A stretch of DNA of 9,759 bases from Chloroflexota bacterium (lineage in GTDB: Bacteria; Chloroflexota; Limnocylindria; Limnocylindrales; CSP1-4), in the NCBI GenBank assembly GCA_021777365.1, contig JAJYDP010000143.1, positions 1-9,759 of the forward strand, written 5' to 3'. The position numbers were made by a program, and so were the translations under genes. Each line of letters opens with the position of its first letter. Position 1 is the first letter of the stretch. Under the pieces are notes generated by a model. The model was not told where the DNA came from and ran no database searches. It worked only from the letters and a program-made list of their open reading frames with translations. This document shows, piece by piece, positions 2,938 through 9,759 of the stretch.

Positions 2938-3387
2938 ATGAGGGCGATGACTGCGGCGCTGGCGAGCGAGCGCGCAGGAGCGGTGTCGCGCGACGGCCTC
3001 CACGCCGTCACGGGCACGCCCCGCGTGTGGCTTCGTGCGGAGGGGGTGGCCGCGCTCGTCGCGGGTGCAGCGCTCTACCTCCATCTGGGCGGCCCGCTCC
3101 TCTGGCTCGTGCCGCTGCTGTTTGCGGTCGACGTCTCGATGGTCGGGTACCTCGGCGGGCCCCGCCCCGGGGCCCTCGTCTACAACCTCGCCCACAACTG
3201 GGTGGCCGGCCTCGCCGTGCTGGCACTGGCGTGGTGGCTCGGGTCGGCGCCGCTTGCGCTCGGCGGCGCGATCCTGGTCGCGCACACCGGCCTGGACCGT
3301 ACCCTGGGCTACGGCTTGAAGTACCCCACCGCGTTCGCCGACACGCACCTCGGTCGGCTCGGGCGACCCCGGGGAGCCGGCCGATGA
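2938..3387 (+). CDS. DUF4260-family small membrane protein
   Basis: A 149-residue protein of the DUF4260 family, whose function is not known. After a polar N-terminus of about 30 residues there are roughly four hydrophobic segments (about 36-50, 53-71, 80-100, 103-117), then the family signature: HTGLDRTLGYGLKYP (about 116-130) and FADTHLGRLGR (about 133-143). The family is usually about 110-130 residues, so the N-terminal extension is slightly long. I chose the ATG at 2938 for its AGGGGGG site 6 bases upstream; an in-frame GTG at 2893 lies at the predicted transcript start and an ATG at 2947 is also possible. Its stop overlaps the start of the TetR gene (ATGA), so the two are almost certainly one operon. 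The TetR protein may control this gene in response to a small molecule, but no substrate can be read from the sequence. Confidence 0.85.
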   Translation: MRAMTAALASERAGAVSRDGLHAVTGTPRVWLRAEGVAALVAGAALYLHLGGPLLWLVPLLFAVDVSMVGYLGGPRPGALVYNLAHNWVAGLAVLALAWWLGSAPLALGGAILVAHTGLDRTLGYGLKYPTAFADTHLGRLGRPRGAGR

Positions 3388-3995
3388 GCCCGGCGCGCGC
3401 CCGGACCTCGCGGGCCGCGATCATCGCGGCCGCCCGCGACCTGCTCGAGGACGGTGGCCTGGAGGCCGTCTCGATGGCCGGCGTCGCCGAGCGCGTGGGG
3501 ATCAAGGCCCCCTCGCTGTACAAGCACTTCGACGACCGGAGCTCGCTCCTCGCCGCCCTCGCGACGGAGGTGGCGCTCGAGCTCGGGCAGAGCCTGGTCG
3601 ACGCGGCGGCGCGCTCCGGCGCGGAGCCGTCGGCGCGACTGCGGGCGCTCGCCGCCACCTACCGATCGTTCGCCCTGGCGACGCCGCGGGCCACCGCCCT
3701 CCTGTTCGCGAGCGTCGCCCCCGGTGTGGCACCGACCCCCGAGGCCCAGGCGGAGGCCGCGCGCCCGGTACTCGAAGCGACCGAGGCGCTCGTCGGGCGG
3801 GCGCGTGCGCTGTCCGCTGCCCGCCTGCTGACCGCGTTCGCGTACGGGTTCACCAGCATGGAGTCGGCGGGTGCGTTCCGCTTCGGGGGGGATGTCGAGG
3901 AAGCGTACCGGTTCGGCGTCTCGGTGTTGTCGGCTGGGTTGGAGCAGGGTGTCGCGGCCCCGCCGGACGCCCGAGGGACCCATGCTCGGGCGTGA
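3384..3995 (+). CDS. TetR/AcrR-family transcriptional regulator with WHG-type C-terminal domain
   Basis: A 203-residue cytoplasmic one-component repressor. The N-terminal helix-turn-helix is clear: RAAIIAAARDLLEDGGLEAVS (10-30), then MAGVAERVGI and the recognition helix with KAPSLYKHFDDRSSLLAAL (41-59), the classic TetR pattern. The remaining all-helical part (about 70-190), with AATYRSFALATP and a later AFAYGFTSMESAGAF, resembles the WHG/TetR_C_33 ligand-binding and dimerisation domain. The ATG at 3384 overlaps the DUF4260 stop and has GGGGAG upstream, which indicates translational coupling. The gene probably represses its own operon through the palindrome at 2855-2869. It faces the oxidoreductase gene ending at 4070; the 74-base convergent gap shows no convincing terminator. 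Confidence 0.9.
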   Translation: MSPARARTSRAAIIAAARDLLEDGGLEAVSMAGVAERVGIKAPSLYKHFDDRSSLLAALATEVALELGQSLVDAAARSGAEPSARLRALAATYRSFALATPRATALLFASVAPGVAPTPEAQAEAARPVLEATEALVGRARALSAARLLTAFAYGFTSMESAGAFRFGGDVEEAYRFGVSVLSAGLEQGVAAPPDARGTHARA

Positions 3996-4967: not shown

Positions 4968-5759
4968 TCAGTGGCGGACTTCCTCGGGTGTCTCATACCA
5001 GCGCACCCGTTCCCCGACCCGCGCCCGAGCCTTCCAGGCCACCGACTTAGGCGCGCCGGCGATCGCGGCGCGCAGCGCCTCGATCTGCGCCGCGACGTCG
5101 TAGCTCGCGCCCGGGGCAGGCTGCTCGGTCCACAGCTCCGCGACCTTGCGGAGGTTGCGCTCCACGGTGTGGCAGAAGCCCCAGTCGGAGCCCAGGACGG
5201 CCCGCAGGCGGCGCAGGTCGATCGTGTCGGTGTCCGACTCGCCGAGCGGGTGGTCGGCCAGCAGGCAGAGCCCGTCGCCAAGGTCCTTCCGGTTGATCTC
5301 CCAGATCTGGAGTTTGGTCAGGAGCAGGTCGGCGAGCGGAATGGTCGGCTCAGCCGACGCCAGCCGATCGTGCAAGTCGAGCCGGTGACTCATGGTGAGC
5401 TCGTCAAAGATCACATCGATCGTCCAGCGACCGTCGGGCGCACCGTAGTTCAGTCGCTGTGCACCATGCAGCGCGTTGAACAGCTTCTCCGGCACATAGC
5501 CCTGCGCCTCGAAGAACGCCTTGACTGCGCTGCGCGCGCCCGAGCCGGCTGCGAAGTCCAGGTCGGCGTACTCCCTTGCGAACGGCGCGCGACGCACCGA
5601 CGGCGAGCGGAGCCAGACACCGAGGCCGCCCATGAGGCGCAGCGGGAGCCGTTGCGCGAGCGCGGCCGTCGCCAGGCGTTCAGCTTCGGCCCGGATGTCG
5701 GCCAGGATCGCAGGCGCGGTAGGGGCGTGCGGAACCTCGGATGGCGGCATGCTCGTCAC
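4968..5759 (-). CDS. Nucleotidyltransferase-fold protein of unknown function (Pol-beta/AbiEii-like)
   Basis: A 263-residue soluble protein. The visible features fit the Pol-beta nucleotidyltransferase fold: RLMGGLGVWLRS (41-52) supplies the GG of the nucleotide-binding turn, YADLDFA (64-70) the paired metal-binding acids, and WTIDVIFDE (112-120) the third acid on the next strand. PLADLLLTKLQIWEINRKDLGD (141-162) is the helix with KLQ and KD seen after the core in AbiEii-like and related proteins. I do not recognise a named family with confidence; these folds include antibiotic-modifying enzymes, toxins and inactive relatives. No AbiEi-like or other antitoxin partner adjoins it, which argues against a standard toxin-antitoxin pair. 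The start is a GTG at 5759; an ATG three codons later (5750) is equally possible because neither has a strong ribosome binding site. It begins just downstream (minus sense) of the terminator hairpin. Confidence 0.75.
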   Translation of the reverse strand: MTSMPPSEVPHAPTAPAILADIRAEAERLATAALAQRLPLRLMGGLGVWLRSPSVRRAPFAREYADLDFAAGSGARSAVKAFFEAQGYVPEKLFNALHGAQRLNYGAPDGRWTIDVIFDELTMSHRLDLHDRLASAEPTIPLADLLLTKLQIWEINRKDLGDGLCLLADHPLGESDTDTIDLRRLRAVLGSDWGFCHTVERNLRKVAELWTEQPAPGASYDVAAQIEALRAAIAGAPKSVAWKARARVGERVRWYETPEEVRH

Positions 5760-5776: not shown

Positions 5777-5809
5777 GCAGCGACCCCGGCCGGCGGCCGG
5801 GGTCGCTGC
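5777..5809 (-). terminator. Perfect 15-bp hairpin after the APC permease gene
   Basis: The arms 5777-5791 and 5795-5809 are exact reverse complements around a three-base loop; each is GC-rich and ends in CGACCCCGG or its complement. It lies 20 bases beyond the permease stop and before the next minus-strand gene. No U-run follows, so if it terminates transcription it does so as a strong hairpin alone or with help from Rho. It is symmetric and would form on either strand. Confidence 0.7.
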
Positions 5810-5829: not shown

Positions 5830-7467
5830 TCACTCGGGCGGAAGCTCGCGGTAGACGAGATCGATGTCGATACCCTGGCTGCGACGGATGTACTTCGAGC
5901 CGAAGTACACGACGAGCCCCACCACCACGATCATGCCCATGAAGGCGGGGACCTGCCACCAGTTGTTCGGGTTGCCCGCGAGGGCGAGCGCAGGGAAGGC
6001 CAGCGTGCACCAGGTGAGGTACAGCATCACGAGGACCGAGAGGGGTGCCACGATCTTCAGGACCGGCACGCCCAGGAAGGACATGTTGGCCGGGGACGCC
6101 CGGTACAGGTCCGGCCGGCGCTCCGGGAAGATGAAGGCGGCCACCGCCACGATCACGACCGTGACCACGCCCGCCAGCACGCCGAGCGCGAGCCACGTCT
6201 GGAAGTCGGTGCTCACGATGCTCCAGACCAGCATCAGGGTGATGATCACCATCTCGAGCAAGATCGCCCACACCGGCGAGTGGGTCCGTTCGTTGACCTC
6301 GGCGAGCTTCTCGGGCAGCAGCCGATCGAAGGCCCAGGCGAACCAGGTGCGGATCGGCATGAAGGTGTTGCCCACCATGGCCGGCAGGCTCCAGAAGAGG
6401 AACGAGCCGACGATCAGCACCGTCAGGACCGGGATGTTGTAGACCAGCGACGCCATGAAGTGATACCAGGGGCTGGTCGGGATCTTGAGGACGTCGCCGA
6501 CGGCGGAGCCACCGGTGTTCACCGCCACCATGAAGTTGTAGCCGGTGACCTTGAAGAGCAGGATCACGCCCAGGCAGATGAAGATCACGTCCCAGGCGAG
6601 GGCGCCAAACATGATGCCCATCTGGCGGCCCCGGTTGGCGGCGCTCTTCAGCTCTCCGCTCAGATAGACCGACCACCAGTTCCACATCATGAAGGTCATC
6701 ACGACGAAGATCGACGGCAGGGTGGCGTTGAGGTTGCCCGCGTCTGCGTGGGCGCCGCCGGCACCCGCCGCCGAGATGATCTGCGCGGCGGTCCCACCGC
6801 CGTACTTCGCGTTCAACGCGTTGAAGTTGTTGACGAAGTCCTGGTTGGAGCCGAGTACCAGCACCACGAAGGCGAGGAACGTGCCGGCCGAAGCGATGAT
6901 CCAGAAGACGTTCTGCCAGCGGAATGTCGTCCGGAGCCCGGCGATGAGGATCGCGCCCATCAGGACGACCATGACCATCGCACCGAGAAAGACCCACAAG
7001 GGGTGACCGGACTGGTCCTGGAAGTTCTGGCCCCAGGTGATGAGGGTCTGGTTATCGAAGATGACCCCGAGAGTGGCGAGGATCGGGCCGAGGGCGAACA
7101 CGGGGAAGTAGCGGGCCCAGAACGTCGCCCCGATCGTGGCTGACAGGGCCGCCCCGAAGTTCGAGACGAGCGCAAGTGGCGGCGAGAGGATGCGGCTCAC
7201 CCAGACGTAGTCACCGCCGGTCCTGGGCATGCTCGAGGCGAGGAGCGACATCATCACGAGGACCGGGATGTTGATGACGAAGCTGATGATCGTCGCCCAT
7301 ACGAGATCGGCGCCGGGGAAGGCGGAGAGGGCGAAGAACACCCCCCAGGCCAGGGTCGCGCCCACCGGCGCCGAGAACACGGCGTTGAAGATCGTGGCGT
7401 CGACCGCATTCGCCTCGCGCACGAGCCCCGTGCTCTGGCGGACGAAGAGCTGACTGCCTCCTGCCAC
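5830..7467 (-). CDS. APC-superfamily permease
   Basis: A 545-residue polytopic inner-membrane transporter of the amino acid-polyamine-organocation superfamily, probably 12 or more helices. Landmarks are the first helix region with FSAPVGATLAWGVFFALSAF (31-50), the signature PRTGGDYVWVSR (81-92), SGELKSAANRGRQMG (about 270-284, the family's GE-K loop), and FAWAFDRLLPEKLAEVNERTHSPVWA (about 376-401), the family's DxxLP...V..R..SP segment. A poorly conserved extracytoplasmic stretch at about 206-250 makes it longer than the usual 430-500. The start is GTG at 7467, with AGGGAGGT five bases upstream; the open frame extends to 7608 but that part is Arg/Gly-rich and lies in the leader. The substrate cannot be read from sequence: APC members carry amino acids, polyamines, purines and others. 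It is divergent from the DeoR gene, whose product probably controls it. Confidence 0.9.
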   Translation of the reverse strand: MAGGSQLFVRQSTGLVREANAVDATIFNAVFSAPVGATLAWGVFFALSAFPGADLVWATIISFVINIPVLVMMSLLASSMPRTGGDYVWVSRILSPPLALVSNFGAALSATIGATFWARYFPVFALGPILATLGVIFDNQTLITWGQNFQDQSGHPLWVFLGAMVMVVLMGAILIAGLRTTFRWQNVFWIIASAGTFLAFVVLVLGSNQDFVNNFNALNAKYGGGTAAQIISAAGAGGAHADAGNLNATLPSIFVVMTFMMWNWWSVYLSGELKSAANRGRQMGIMFGALAWDVIFICLGVILLFKVTGYNFMVAVNTGGSAVGDVLKIPTSPWYHFMASLVYNIPVLTVLIVGSFLFWSLPAMVGNTFMPIRTWFAWAFDRLLPEKLAEVNERTHSPVWAILLEMVIITLMLVWSIVSTDFQTWLALGVLAGVVTVVIVAVAAFIFPERRPDLYRASPANMSFLGVPVLKIVAPLSVLVMLYLTWCTLAFPALALAGNPNNWWQVPAFMGMIVVVGLVVYFGSKYIRRSQGIDIDLVYRELPPE

Positions 7468-7472
7468 TCGGC

Positions 7473-7480
7473 ACCTCCCT
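7473..7480 (-). promoter_or_regulatory. Ribosome binding site fixing the permease start
   Basis: AGGGAGGT on the minus strand, five bases before the GTG at 7467. It is the only strong site near the N-terminus and settles the start against longer readings from 7608. Confidence 0.75.
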
Positions 7481-7482
7481 GG

Positions 7483-7537
7483 CGGTTCCCCGCGGGACCG
7501 TCCATGTCGGGCGCCCGGGGCCTCCGGGCAGGCCCGA
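7483..7537 (-). promoter_or_regulatory. Two consecutive hairpins in the permease mRNA leader
   Basis: Hairpin A: TCGGGC (7507-7512) pairs with GCCCGA (7532-7537) and GCCCGG (7513-7518) with CCGGGC (7524-7529), giving twelve pairs, a two-base bulge and a five-base loop. Hairpin B: CGGT (7483-7486) and CCC (7488-7490) pair with GGG (7494-7496) and ACCG (7497-7500), with a one-base bulge. B ends three bases from the ribosome binding site. Neither resembles a riboswitch class I recognise. They could affect translation or stability, or be chance in GC-rich sequence. Confidence 0.4.
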
Positions 7538-7561
7538 TACCTCGACCCACGCGCCGGGCCC

Positions 7562-7591
7562 TTGACGGCCCTGATGCGCGCAGTCGATAGT
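7562..7591 (+). promoter_or_regulatory. Possible promoter of the DeoR-BtpA operon
   Basis: TTGACG (7562-7567), an 18-base spacer and GATAGT (7586-7591, four of six consensus bases). The predicted start is near 7598, about 120 bases before the DeoR start. It would place both arms of the inverted repeat at 7601-7656 just downstream of the start, a position suited to repression. Confidence 0.4.
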
Positions 7592-7618
7592 GCAACACAA
7601 TCGCACACTCTACGTCAA
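7589..7618 (-). promoter_or_regulatory. Possible promoter of the APC permease
   Basis: On the minus strand TTGACG (7618 to 7613), an 18-base spacer and TGCACT (7594 to 7589, three of six consensus bases). The -10 is weak. It faces the possible DeoR promoter with overlapping -10 boxes. The left arm of the inverted repeat (7601-7609) lies within its spacer. Confidence 0.25.
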
Positions 7619-7656
7619 CAGAATCTGTGAGTTTCTCAGCGGGTCCAAGTGTGCGA
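7601..7656. promoter_or_regulatory. Candidate DeoR operator: 9-bp inverted repeat with distant arms
   Basis: TCGCACACT (7601-7609) and its exact reverse complement AGTGTGCGA (7648-7656), arms 38 bases apart, in the divergent promoter region. CACA also occurs just outside each arm in matching orientation, at slightly different spacing. DeoR-family regulators often bind several short repeats and may loop DNA between them. A looser related sequence, TGCAACAC (7591-7598), adjoins the left arm. Confidence 0.5.
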
Positions 7657-7701
7657 CTATGTGAGGACCGCCGCACCTGGAGCGCCGGCCACATGGCAGA
7701 T

Positions 7702-7707
7702 GGAGGT
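7702..7707 (+). promoter_or_regulatory. Ribosome binding site favouring the GTG start of the DeoR gene
   Basis: GGAGGT, ten bases before GTG 7718. The competing ATG at 7700 has no comparable site upstream, and this GGAGGT would lie inside its coding sequence. Confidence 0.6.
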
Positions 7708-7717
7708 GGCACCACCC

Positions 7718-8602
7718 GTGGTACTGGCCGCGGATCGCCGCGTGAAGATCCTGGAACGCGTGGCCGAGGGGATGTCCATCGCGGTGGCCGACCTCGCGCG
7801 GGACTTCGCCTGCTCGGAGATGACCATCCGACGCGACATCCAGCGCCTCGAGCGGGACGGGTTCCTGCGCCGTACCTATGGCGGCGCCACGGCCCACCTG
7901 ACCCGCTCGGTGGACCTCGCGTTCAACGCCCGCGCCCTCGCCCACGCGCGGGAGAAGCGGATGATCGCCCTCGCCGCGACCCGCCGGCTCGGCACGGCGC
8001 GGTTGCTCTTCCTCGGGATCGGCACCACCGCGGAGCAGTTCGCGCGGTACCTGCCGGCGGGGCTCGAGCTGACCGTGGCCACCGGGTCGTTGCCGATCGC
8101 GAGCCTGCTCGGGACGCGGCCCGTGCGGGTGGTGATCCTGGGCGGCACCGTCCGCCACGACGAGCTGAGCTGCGTCGGGCCGGCCGCACGGGCCACCCTC
8201 GAGCGCTATCGCTTCGACCTGGCTGTCCTCGGCGCTGCGGGTCTCACGGCGCGGTGGGGCATCACCGACCTGAACGACGAGGAGGCGGAGATCCATCGGG
8301 TCGCCATCGAGCGCAGCGAACGGCTGATGGTGATCGCGGATGGCTCCAAGCTCGGCGCCGTCGCCCCCGCCATGGTCGCCCCGGCCGACCGCATCGAGAC
8401 CCTCGTGACCGACGCCAGCGCGCCCCGGCCCGAACTGGACGCCCTGCGCGCCTGCGGTGTCCGGATCGTGATCGCGAACGGAATGACCGCGACGGGAGGG
8501 CCGACCGAGGCCTCGACCCGCGGTGACGACACCGTGGACACGCGCGTCCCGGGCCCTGCCGGCTCCCCGGACGCGGGGCGGATTGAAGACCAAGGGAGGT
8601 GA
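7718..8602 (+). CDS. DeoR/GlpR-family transcriptional regulator
   Basis: A 294-residue DNA-binding regulator. The N-terminal winged helix-turn-helix is canonical: RRVKILERVAEG (7-18), VADLARDFACSEMTIRRDIQRLERDGFLRRTYGGA (23-57). The C-terminal sensor domain has the ribose-5-phosphate-isomerase-like fold: LFLGIGTTAEQFARYL (97-112) carries the GTT phosphate-binding turn, VRVVILGGTVRHDELSCVGPAA (136-157), RFDLAVLGAAGL (165-176), then EAEIHRVAIERSERLMVIADGSKLG (189-213) with the conserved E and SK. Members usually sense a phosphorylated sugar, polyol or nucleoside. The core ends near residue 253, followed by about 40 Gly/Asp/Thr-rich residues beyond the family's usual 250-260. GTG 7718 is chosen for GGAGGT upstream; ATG 7700 is the alternative. 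It is divergent from the permease and its last codons form the ribosome binding site of the next gene. Confidence 0.9.
   Translation: MVLAADRRVKILERVAEGMSIAVADLARDFACSEMTIRRDIQRLERDGFLRRTYGGATAHLTRSVDLAFNARALAHAREKRMIALAATRRLGTARLLFLGIGTTAEQFARYLPAGLELTVATGSLPIASLLGTRPVRVVILGGTVRHDELSCVGPAARATLERYRFDLAVLGAAGLTARWGITDLNDEEAEIHRVAIERSERLMVIADGSKLGAVAPAMVAPADRIETLVTDASAPRPELDALRACGVRIVIANGMTATGGPTEASTRGDDTVDTRVPGPAGSPDAGRIEDQGR
8592..8602 (+). promoter_or_regulatory. Ribosome binding site of the BtpA gene embedded in the DeoR stop
   Basis: AAGGGAGGTGA spans the last two sense codons (GGG, AGG) and the TGA of the DeoR gene. It is a near-complete match to the 16S rRNA anti-Shine-Dalgarno, eight bases (from GGAGG) before GTG 8608. 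This supports that start over an in-frame GTG at 8599 that overlaps the site, and over ATG 8620. Confidence 0.75.
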
Positions 8603-8607
8603 CGCAG

Positions 8608-9426
8608 GTGGGTGATCTCATGCATCTGTTCGGCGTCCGGAAGCCCGTGATCGCCATGATGCACTTCCCCGGGCTGCCGGGTCGCCCACGGCACGACGTC
8701 GCCGGAGGACCCGACGCCCTCCTCGAGCCGCTCGCCCGCGACCTCGCCGTGCTCCAGGAGGCGGGCGTGGACGGGCTGCTGTTCTGTAACGAGAAGGACT
8801 ACCCATACCAGTTGAAGGTCGGCCCCGAGATCCCGGCCGCCATGGCGGCGGTCATCGGGCGGCTGCGGGACGAGGTGCACGTGCCCTTCGGCGTCAACAT
8901 CCTGTGGGACCCGATGGCCAGCCTGGCCCTCGCCCGGGCGACCGGCGCGGTCTTCATCCGGGAAGTCCTCACCGGTGTCTACGAGTCCGACCTCGGCATC
9001 ATCGAGCCCCACATCGGCGACATCGCGGCCTACCGCAGCGCCATCGGTGCGGCCGACGTGGCGCTCTTCGACAACATCTCGCCCGAGTTCAGCAGCGCGC
9101 TCGGCGGACGAACGCTCGCGGACCGGGCGCGCGGCGCCGCCTTCCTCGAGATGGACGCGATCCTCATCAGCGGCTGGGCCGCGGGAAGCCCCATGGCGAT
9201 GAGCGACCTCGTGGCCGCCAAGGAGGCGGCACCGGACACCCCGGTCATCGCCAACACGGGCGTGCGAAGCGAGCACATCGCGGAGATCCTGGGCGTCGCC
9301 GACGGGGCGATCGTGGGCACCAGCCTGAAGCGCGAGGGCGTCACCTGGAACCCGGTCGATCGCGAGCGGGCCATGCGCCTGATGGACGCGGCGCGCGCCT
9401 TCCGGGCGCGGCCGGTCGGCGCATAG
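8608..9426 (+). CDS. BtpA/SgcQ-family TIM-barrel protein
   Basis: A 272-residue cytoplasmic protein of the BtpA family (COG0434), which includes E. coli SgcQ and the cyanobacterial BtpA linked to photosystem I assembly; the biochemical reaction is not established. Family marks in order: RKPVIAMMHFPGLPG (11-25), EAGVDGLLFCNEKDYPY (51-67), VPFGVNILWDPMASLALARATGA (92-114), FIREVLTGVYESDLG (116-130), LFDNISPE (153-160), AILISGW (184-190), TPVIANTGVRSEHIAEIL (211-228), and ADGAIVGTSLKREGVTWNPVD (231-251), the end of a phosphate-binding-type barrel. Full length for the family. The GTG start at 8608 has a strong ribosome binding site in the DeoR stop, so the two are one operon. The phosphoesterase gene begins 13 bases after the stop. 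The DeoR partner and the barrel suggest a phosphorylated metabolite as ligand or substrate; that is inference. Confidence 0.9.
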   Translation: MGDLMHLFGVRKPVIAMMHFPGLPGRPRHDVAGGPDALLEPLARDLAVLQEAGVDGLLFCNEKDYPYQLKVGPEIPAAMAAVIGRLRDEVHVPFGVNILWDPMASLALARATGAVFIREVLTGVYESDLGIIEPHIGDIAAYRSAIGAADVALFDNISPEFSSALGGRTLADRARGAAFLEMDAILISGWAAGSPMAMSDLVAAKEAAPDTPVIANTGVRSEHIAEILGVADGAIVGTSLKREGVTWNPVDRERAMRLMDAARAFRARPVGA

Positions 9427-9439
9427 GCGGCGCGGCGGC

Positions 9440-9759
9440 ATGGTGCGCAAGACCCGCCTCTACTTCGCCACCGACCTGCACGGCTCGTCGAAGTGCTTCC
9501 GCAAGTTCCTGAACGCGGGCCCGGTGTACGGGGCCGACGTCATGGTCCTCGGGGGCGACCTGGCCGGCAAGGCGATCCAGTCGATCGTGCGCGGCACCAA
9601 CGGCATCTGGCACTGCACCTTCATCGGCACCGACTACCAGGTGCGCGAGGGGCCCGATCTCGACGACCTCGAGAAGCTGATCGCGGATCACGGCTACTAC
9701 CCCTACCGCGCCGAGCCGGGCGAGCTCGAGGCGCTCCGCGCAGAGGGAAGGCTGGACGA
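9440..9759 (+). CDS. Calcineurin-like metallophosphoesterase, partial (C-terminus cut by window end)
   Basis: The first 106 codons of a cytoplasmic metal-dependent phosphoesterase, open to the window end. The N-terminus TRLYFATDLHGSSKCFRKFL (5-24) carries the D-x-H metal motif (D12, H14), and ADVMVLGGDLAGK (32-44) gives the GD motif with metal ligand D40. The later GNH and histidine motifs of the family would lie beyond the window. Residues 65-106 (TDYQVREGPDLDDLEKLI onwards) form a charged insert that I recall in a chloroflexotal and archaeal subgroup; its substrate is unknown. ATG 9440 is 13 bases after the BtpA stop with only a weak GC-rich ribosome binding site, which fits translational coupling in the DeoR-BtpA operon. 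It may hydrolyse a phosphate ester handled by the same pathway, but a housekeeping nuclease or cyclic-nucleotide role is equally open. Confidence 0.85.
   Translation, partial: MVRKTRLYFATDLHGSSKCFRKFLNAGPVYGADVMVLGGDLAGKAIQSIVRGTNGIWHCTFIGTDYQVREGPDLDDLEKLIADHGYYPYRAEPGELEALRAEGRLD

Follow-up and report, generated by a model that had tools for sequence, protein, structure and literature searches.

A conserved BtpA-family gene cassette and a candidate permease-nucleotidyltransferase-phosphoesterase module in a Chloroflexota bacterium

Introduction

What does a BtpA-family protein do in a locus that also encodes a DeoR-type regulator, a phosphoesterase and a divergently transcribed permease? 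The question arises from a 9,759-nucleotide stretch of DNA from a Chloroflexota bacterium (contig JAJYDP010000143.1), hereafter the window, to whose full length all coordinates refer. A sequence-only reading had proposed that DeoR, BtpA/SgcQ and phosphoesterase (PE) genes diverge there from a gene for an APC permease, and profile searches with Pfam and NCBIfam models confirmed all four, PE through a full-length relative. The regulator, transporter and two putative enzymes of that reading are thus present, and it overlooked a further gene, encoding a nucleotidyltransferase-like protein (NT; 4968 to 5759). The best explanation of the locus as a whole, to which we assign a probability of about 55%, is that a BtpA catabolic pathway and a separate transport module of permease, NT and PE meet at one divergent promoter. 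Our evidence comprises gene content, conservation, co-occurrence, predicted folds, conserved active-site motifs and a promoter repeat; from it we infer the direction of the pathway, induction through DeoR, the chemistry of BtpA and the nucleotidylation cycle and its target.

The papers listed under the names BtpA and SgcQ deal largely with a Brucella effector that shares the name and with unrelated uses. The cyanobacterial BtpA, formerly considered a photosystem I factor, has according to a 2024 review been redefined as stabilising glutamyl-tRNA reductase (PMC11449065). SgcQ belongs to the sgc operon of E. coli (SgcXBCQAER), described in an earlier paper as a phosphotransferase system whose sugar is unknown (PMC5797941). 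A 2026 study reports that sgc is induced on nitrogen-containing substrates, that sgc mutants have no growth defect and that the substrates and biochemical functions of the operon are still unestablished (PMC13343008). Searches of the open-licence literature for BtpA combined with FGGY, for the BtpA family, or for COG0434, PF03437 or IPR005137 found nothing.

Conservation of the BtpA cassette among relatives

To find relatives, an alignment of 23 BtpA proteins was used to scan genome contigs. The scan gave 253 confirmed matches, of which the best 80 were retained and represent 75 distinct loci; 26 of these (the close loci) encode a BtpA 59-80% identical to that of the window. Partner genes were sought with tblastn, and the genes to the right of the window's PE were deduced from relatives only. 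All 13 close loci flanked on each side by 4 kb or more carry PE, the APC permease, an FGGY-family kinase and a xylose-isomerase-like gene, and 12 each carry DeoR and NT. With contig-cut loci included, the permease is present in 22 of the 26, PE, FGGY and DeoR in 21 each, the isomerase-like gene in 18 and NT in 15. Restricting the count to 6 kb lowers the numbers for the 13 full-flank loci to 8 (permease) and 7 (NT), since the second copy is taken as the centre wherever a locus has two BtpA genes. The usual order, from left to right, is NT and permease, both transcribed leftwards, then DeoR, BtpA, PE, FGGY and the isomerase-like gene, all transcribed rightwards; NT lies on the right side instead in L005, L020 and L021. 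The catabolic cassette that had been proposed is therefore right in outline, and the kinase that had been forecast to the right is found there in relatives. Its suggested extent (7468 to 9759) is too narrow: the full unit reaches leftwards to NT at 4968 and, in relatives, rightwards to the kinase and isomerase-like genes. Judged by its gene content, the window holds part of a conserved bacterial operon predicted to serve the uptake and breakdown of a small molecule. Because the gene set recurs, with DeoR, PE and permease repeatedly found around BtpA in the usual order, chance adjacency of the cassette genes is practically excluded; the partner counts refute it and we found nothing in its favour.

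Some loci count against a strict cassette. PE is absent from L008, L010, L015, L018 and L026. L010, L015 and L018, with BtpA proteins of 69-78% identity, have no PE or kinase in the 7.6-10 kb rightwards, and L008 lacks all six partners (10 kb of left and 1 kb of right flank). Among 177 genomes from the class of the Chloroflexi bacterium that holds locus L001, 33 have a BtpA match, 11 of them without PE. The gene set is rearranged in L073, where BtpA is about 50% identical and the region holds DeoR, BtpA, an FGGY gene in two frames, a short-chain dehydrogenase/reductase (SDR), the permease, NT, PE and an inositol-phosphatase-like gene. Nine of the 26 close loci carry two BtpA copies (L007, L011-L014, L016, L017, L019 and L025), which could catalyse two successive steps or form a hetero-oligomer.

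One of the closest known systems is E. coli sgc, whose SgcQ is 42% identical to the window BtpA and which likewise has a DeoR-type regulator. Unlike sgc, the cassette has an APC permease and an FGGY kinase instead of the other Sgc parts: SgcA, SgcB, SgcC and SgcX were all without a match when the window and its close relatives, 27 loci in all, were searched (SgcA, SgcB and SgcC by tblastn, E 1e-5), which agrees with the earlier proposal that the permease replaces a phosphotransferase system.

BtpA genes were also seen in other settings. In genome G377, from the phylum of the Nocardiopsis sp. (presumably Actinomycetota) that holds L014, DeoR, BtpA and FGGY surround PE (L127 and L186), and the cassette itself therefore crosses phyla. 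At L113 the order is an arginase-family gene, a divergent BtpA (32-36% identical), PE and a PfkB kinase, and only remnants of NT are present in the region. Alphaproteobacterial loci such as L031, L035 and their like place BtpA near an M42 peptidase, an aldo/keto reductase, an amidohydrolase, PfkB, a xylose-isomerase-like protein, RbsD and a sugar ABC transporter; by their gene content they are a predicted second BtpA pathway, also uncharacterised.

Co-occurrence of permease, NT and PE

We searched for PE and NT in the 177 genomes of the class set (limit E 0.001 for both) and in 246 genomes of the second phylum, that of L014's genome, with the stricter limits E 1e-40 for PE and E 1e-10 for NT. 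In the class, PE occurs in 55 genomes, NT in 54 and both in 52, so that they co-occur in 52 of the 57 genomes with either; PE lies within 10 kb of 64 of the 71 NT places scoring above 100 bits. In the second phylum, the corresponding numbers are 33, 32 and 32 (co-occurrence 32/33). NT lies no more than 10 kb from PE at 43 of the 51 full-length PE places there; at 35 the distance is at most 200 bp, and at these the two genes share a strand. The surroundings of PE were then compared in 114 stretches, 67 from the class (PE places tied to a close BtpA cassette left out) and 47 from the second phylum (no selection for or against BtpA; two stretches, in G416, overlap). A permease related to that of the window is encoded in 109 of them (65/67 and 44/47), in 86 no further than 300 bp from PE, and NT in 90 (49 and 41). 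BtpA is present in 3 of the 47 second-phylum stretches; the class count, 1 of 67, says nothing because cassette-tied places were left out. The sequence-only reading had taken PE for an enzyme of the BtpA pathway, which the second-phylum counts indicate is probably a mis-assignment: PE probably belongs with the permease and the overlooked NT.

Other comparisons concern the permease. In the five PE stretches without it (L143, L174, L215, L231 and L232), the contig ends no more than 1.2 kb from PE. As a control, the permease was found at 1 of 49 distant BtpA loci, namely L073, which also has PE and NT. With one query at E 1e-5, a permease match was present in all 39 PE-bearing genomes chosen vs 2 of the 39 chosen that lack both PE and NT. 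The enzymes beside the triad vary from place to place: PfkB with SDR, FGGY with an FAD oxidoreductase, hydantoinase, amidase, amidohydrolase, CN-hydrolase, creatinase-type M24, an S-Me-THD-like protein with DUF1028, DAO with a GcvT domain, or the arginase family. At L107, the triad stands beside an S-Me-THD-like protein, DUF1028 and an M24 peptidase. The open-licence literature held no combined mention of three of the four terms metallophosphoesterase, nucleotidyltransferase, APC family permease and gene neighborhood.

Predicted structures and active sites

BtpA (8608 to 9426, plus strand) is a predicted phosphate-binding (beta-alpha)8 barrel. It matches PF03437 (E 2.8e-68; 230.6 bits, cut-off 30) and TIGR00259 (232.5 bits, cut-off 153.4), and its closest relative of named source, at 86% identity, comes from a metagenome assembly of Candidatus Limnocylindrales. 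It shares the Pfam family with cyanobacterial BtpA, and differs from it in falling below the cut-off of the photosystem I biogenesis equivalog NF045918 (157.8 bits, cut-off 400). In a sequence search of solved structures, no family member was found; the best match was 5ey5 (LBCATS-a; E 0.0088), followed by a tryptophan synthase alpha chain (0.06). The structure prediction for which BtpA had been recommended gave an AlphaFold2 model with a pLDDT of 95 and the phosphate-binding barrel, and named no reaction. Polar residues at the strand ends are conserved in SgcQ too. BtpA would be an enzyme of the phosphate-binding barrel class, most likely a sugar-phosphate isomerase, epimerase or lyase.

PE (9440 to 9759, plus strand) is the first third of a metallophosphoesterase truncated by the window end; the fragment alone matches no Pfam or NCBIfam model. 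Its relative in L001, a 317-residue protein 77% identical to it, carries the calcineurin-type motifs DxH, GD, GN, H and GHxH, with D12, H14, D40, N141, H217, H270 and H272 invariant in a 24-sequence alignment. These motifs and weak profile matches to Rv0805 and its relatives liken PE to the calcineurin-like metallophosphoesterases of the Icc/Rv0805 group, from which it differs in scoring mostly below the cut-offs of the Pfam Metallophos models. NT (263 residues, minus strand) has an AbiEii/MenT-like fold, matching MenT1 and MenT3, and acidic active-site residues, as in the AbiEii/MenT-like and ANT/Lnu nucleotidyltransferases; unlike these, it is paired with a metallophosphoesterase and a permease, and its match to PF14907 is below cut-off. 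Sequence searches against solved structures gave nothing of note for NT and, at E 0.001, no Protein Data Bank match for the permease. The names PF14907 and PF14582 appear in the open-licence literature in one paper, on Borg elements.

The divergent promoter region

The permease gene (5830 to 7467, minus strand; PF13520, E 1.3e-14) and the gene for the 294-residue DeoR regulator (7718 to 8602, plus strand) flank the region from which both arms would be transcribed. Both the HTH_DeoR (PF08220, E 1.1e-13) and the DeoRC sensor domain (PF00455, E 1.3e-39) of the regulator score above cut-off. A pattern scan of positions 7400 to 7760 found one sigma-70-like site vs a mean of 0.0 in shuffles, the promoter TTGACG-18-GATAGT at 7562 to 7591 (plus strand), which points towards DeoR, BtpA and PE; a similar site is present in the intergenic regions of other loci. 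Directly 3' of it stands the operator-like repeat AACACAATCGCACA (7594 to 7607, plus strand), a putative DeoR-binding site from whose position DeoR would be able to block initiation. The repeat follows the pattern AACA[CT]AA[TC]CG[AC]ACA, which occurs in 12 of 17 permease-DeoR intergenic regions vs 0.0 per set in two-base-block shuffles; L002, L014, L020, L023 and L026 have no exact match. The window sequence has an additional operator half-site, TGTGCGA, at 7650-7656. GlpR-type DeoR operators have a GAACA half-site, which the intergenic repeat resembles and which makes it GlpR-like in appearance. The shared promoter region that had been suggested is thus borne out by a conserved repeat beside a promoter.

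Proposed mechanism and alternatives

We propose that DeoR, BtpA and, in relatives, the FGGY kinase and the xylose-isomerase-like protein would form a catabolic pathway for a carbohydrate or polyol. The substrate would be imported unphosphorylated and then phosphorylated by the kinase, and BtpA and the EryC-like barrel would turn the phosphorylated intermediate towards central metabolism; this intermediate may also free DeoR from the promoter repeat. Such a pathway resembles the Brucella-type erythritol pathway in its kinase, its DeoR-type regulator and an isomerase-like protein related to 4k3z (a likeness of sequence only), where we take 4k3z to be EryC and EryA to be an FGGY kinase; unlike it, the cassette has BtpA and the permease triad as extras. 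The erythritol pathway comprises the EryA kinase, the EryC racemase, EryH, EryI and the DeoR-family regulator EryR (PMC5992420). BtpA/SgcQ proteins are widespread, and the cassette supplies one with a defined partner set, the kinase and the EryC-like protein; its substrate can therefore be sought among kinase products.

The permease, NT and PE would make up a transport module, whose catabolic neighbours in other places are enzymes of quite different kinds. NT may add a nucleotide and PE take it off, as a reversible switch or a trap. Because the trio is constant while the enzymes change, NT and PE are most likely there to serve the permease or some step that all cargos share. Tentatively, we regard the trio as a widespread transport-control module, undescribed in the open-licence literature searched, in which the permease or its cargo would be reversibly nucleotidylated; in the window, a module of this kind would be joined to a BtpA sugar-phosphate pathway. 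This reading is possible rather than probable. The candidate site is the S or T of an N-terminal permease motif, [FY]xR[QNK][AS][ST]GL[VT][RK], present in the window as FVRQSTGLVR. Among 115 sources the pattern matched 88 times, and the 74 matches kept by a hydrophobicity filter (72 sources) have only S or T at the key position; this evidence is weak because the pattern pre-required S, T, A or C there and permeases without the pattern are uncounted. The whole locus is a variation on known catabolic operons, and the module may be more than that. The occurrence of the module in dozens of genomes of two groups raises the testable question of whether a class of amino-acid-type permeases is run by reversible nucleotidylation.

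Several observations weigh against our two-part explanation. Fisher tests of PE and NT give about 1e-38 in each genome set, a value that ignores shared ancestry. In 24 of the 114 PE stretches NT is absent, and since these include stretches of about 17 kb (L142, L144, L164, L165, L171 and L180), NT need not be local and can sit elsewhere in the genome. Genome G012, one of the two permease-positive genomes that lack PE and NT, encodes a triad-type permease of full length next to a hydantoinase-like frame. The Pfam typing of the varying partner enzymes covered 12 proteins from selected clusters rather than the whole set of 114 stretches. Finally, the fold matches of BtpA are many and tied, pointing to no reaction, and no single one was therefore chosen.

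The trio could also be a trapping uptake system in which NT nucleotidylates the imported small molecule in the cell and PE later cleaves the ester, a doubtful reading given that cargos must differ widely between clusters and would all have to be accepted by one NT family. The MenT1 and MenT3 fold matches of NT would suit a toxin-antitoxin pair of NT and PE beside the permease, which we consider highly improbable, since in two phyla the partners of NT are a metallophosphoesterase and a permease subfamily. No AbiEi-type antitoxin appeared by name in the Pfam scans made, which included no targeted search for one.

For the catabolic half, the model of fructoselysine use deserves weighing. Like the cassette, the frl operon combines genes for an APC permease and a kinase with one for a xylose-isomerase-like barrel; BtpA would then cleave a sugar-phosphate from an amine. 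Enzymes that accompany the triad elsewhere act on nitrogen compounds, M42 or M29 peptidases lie near 29 of the 49 distant BtpA genes, and the nitrogen-linked induction of sgc (PMC13343008) points the same way. We nevertheless find the model unlikely, since the isomerase-like protein is closer to 3qxb and 4k3z than to a FrlC structure among the matches seen, and the kinase is FGGY rather than PfkB. A non-enzymatic, stabilising BtpA has a precedent in the role published for the cyanobacterial protein (PMC11449065), and is improbable here in view of the score far under the equivalog cut-off, the strand-end polar residues shared with SgcQ and the catabolic neighbours.

Other features of the window

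Ribosome-binding sites and homologue alignments place the likely starts at GTG 7467 (permease), GTG 7718 (DeoR), GTG 8608 (BtpA) and ATG 9440 (PE), with gaps of 5 nt between DeoR and BtpA and 13 nt between BtpA and PE. A perfect G+C-rich inverted repeat at 5777 to 5809, read directly in the gap between permease and NT, is terminator-like and has no T run; NT may be controlled separately from the permease. No Rfam families were found in the window. By eye, a minus-strand frame adjoining NT (4070 to about 4880) resembles a luciferase-like flavin monooxygenase, and a plus-strand frame at 3387-3995 resembles a TetR-type regulator.

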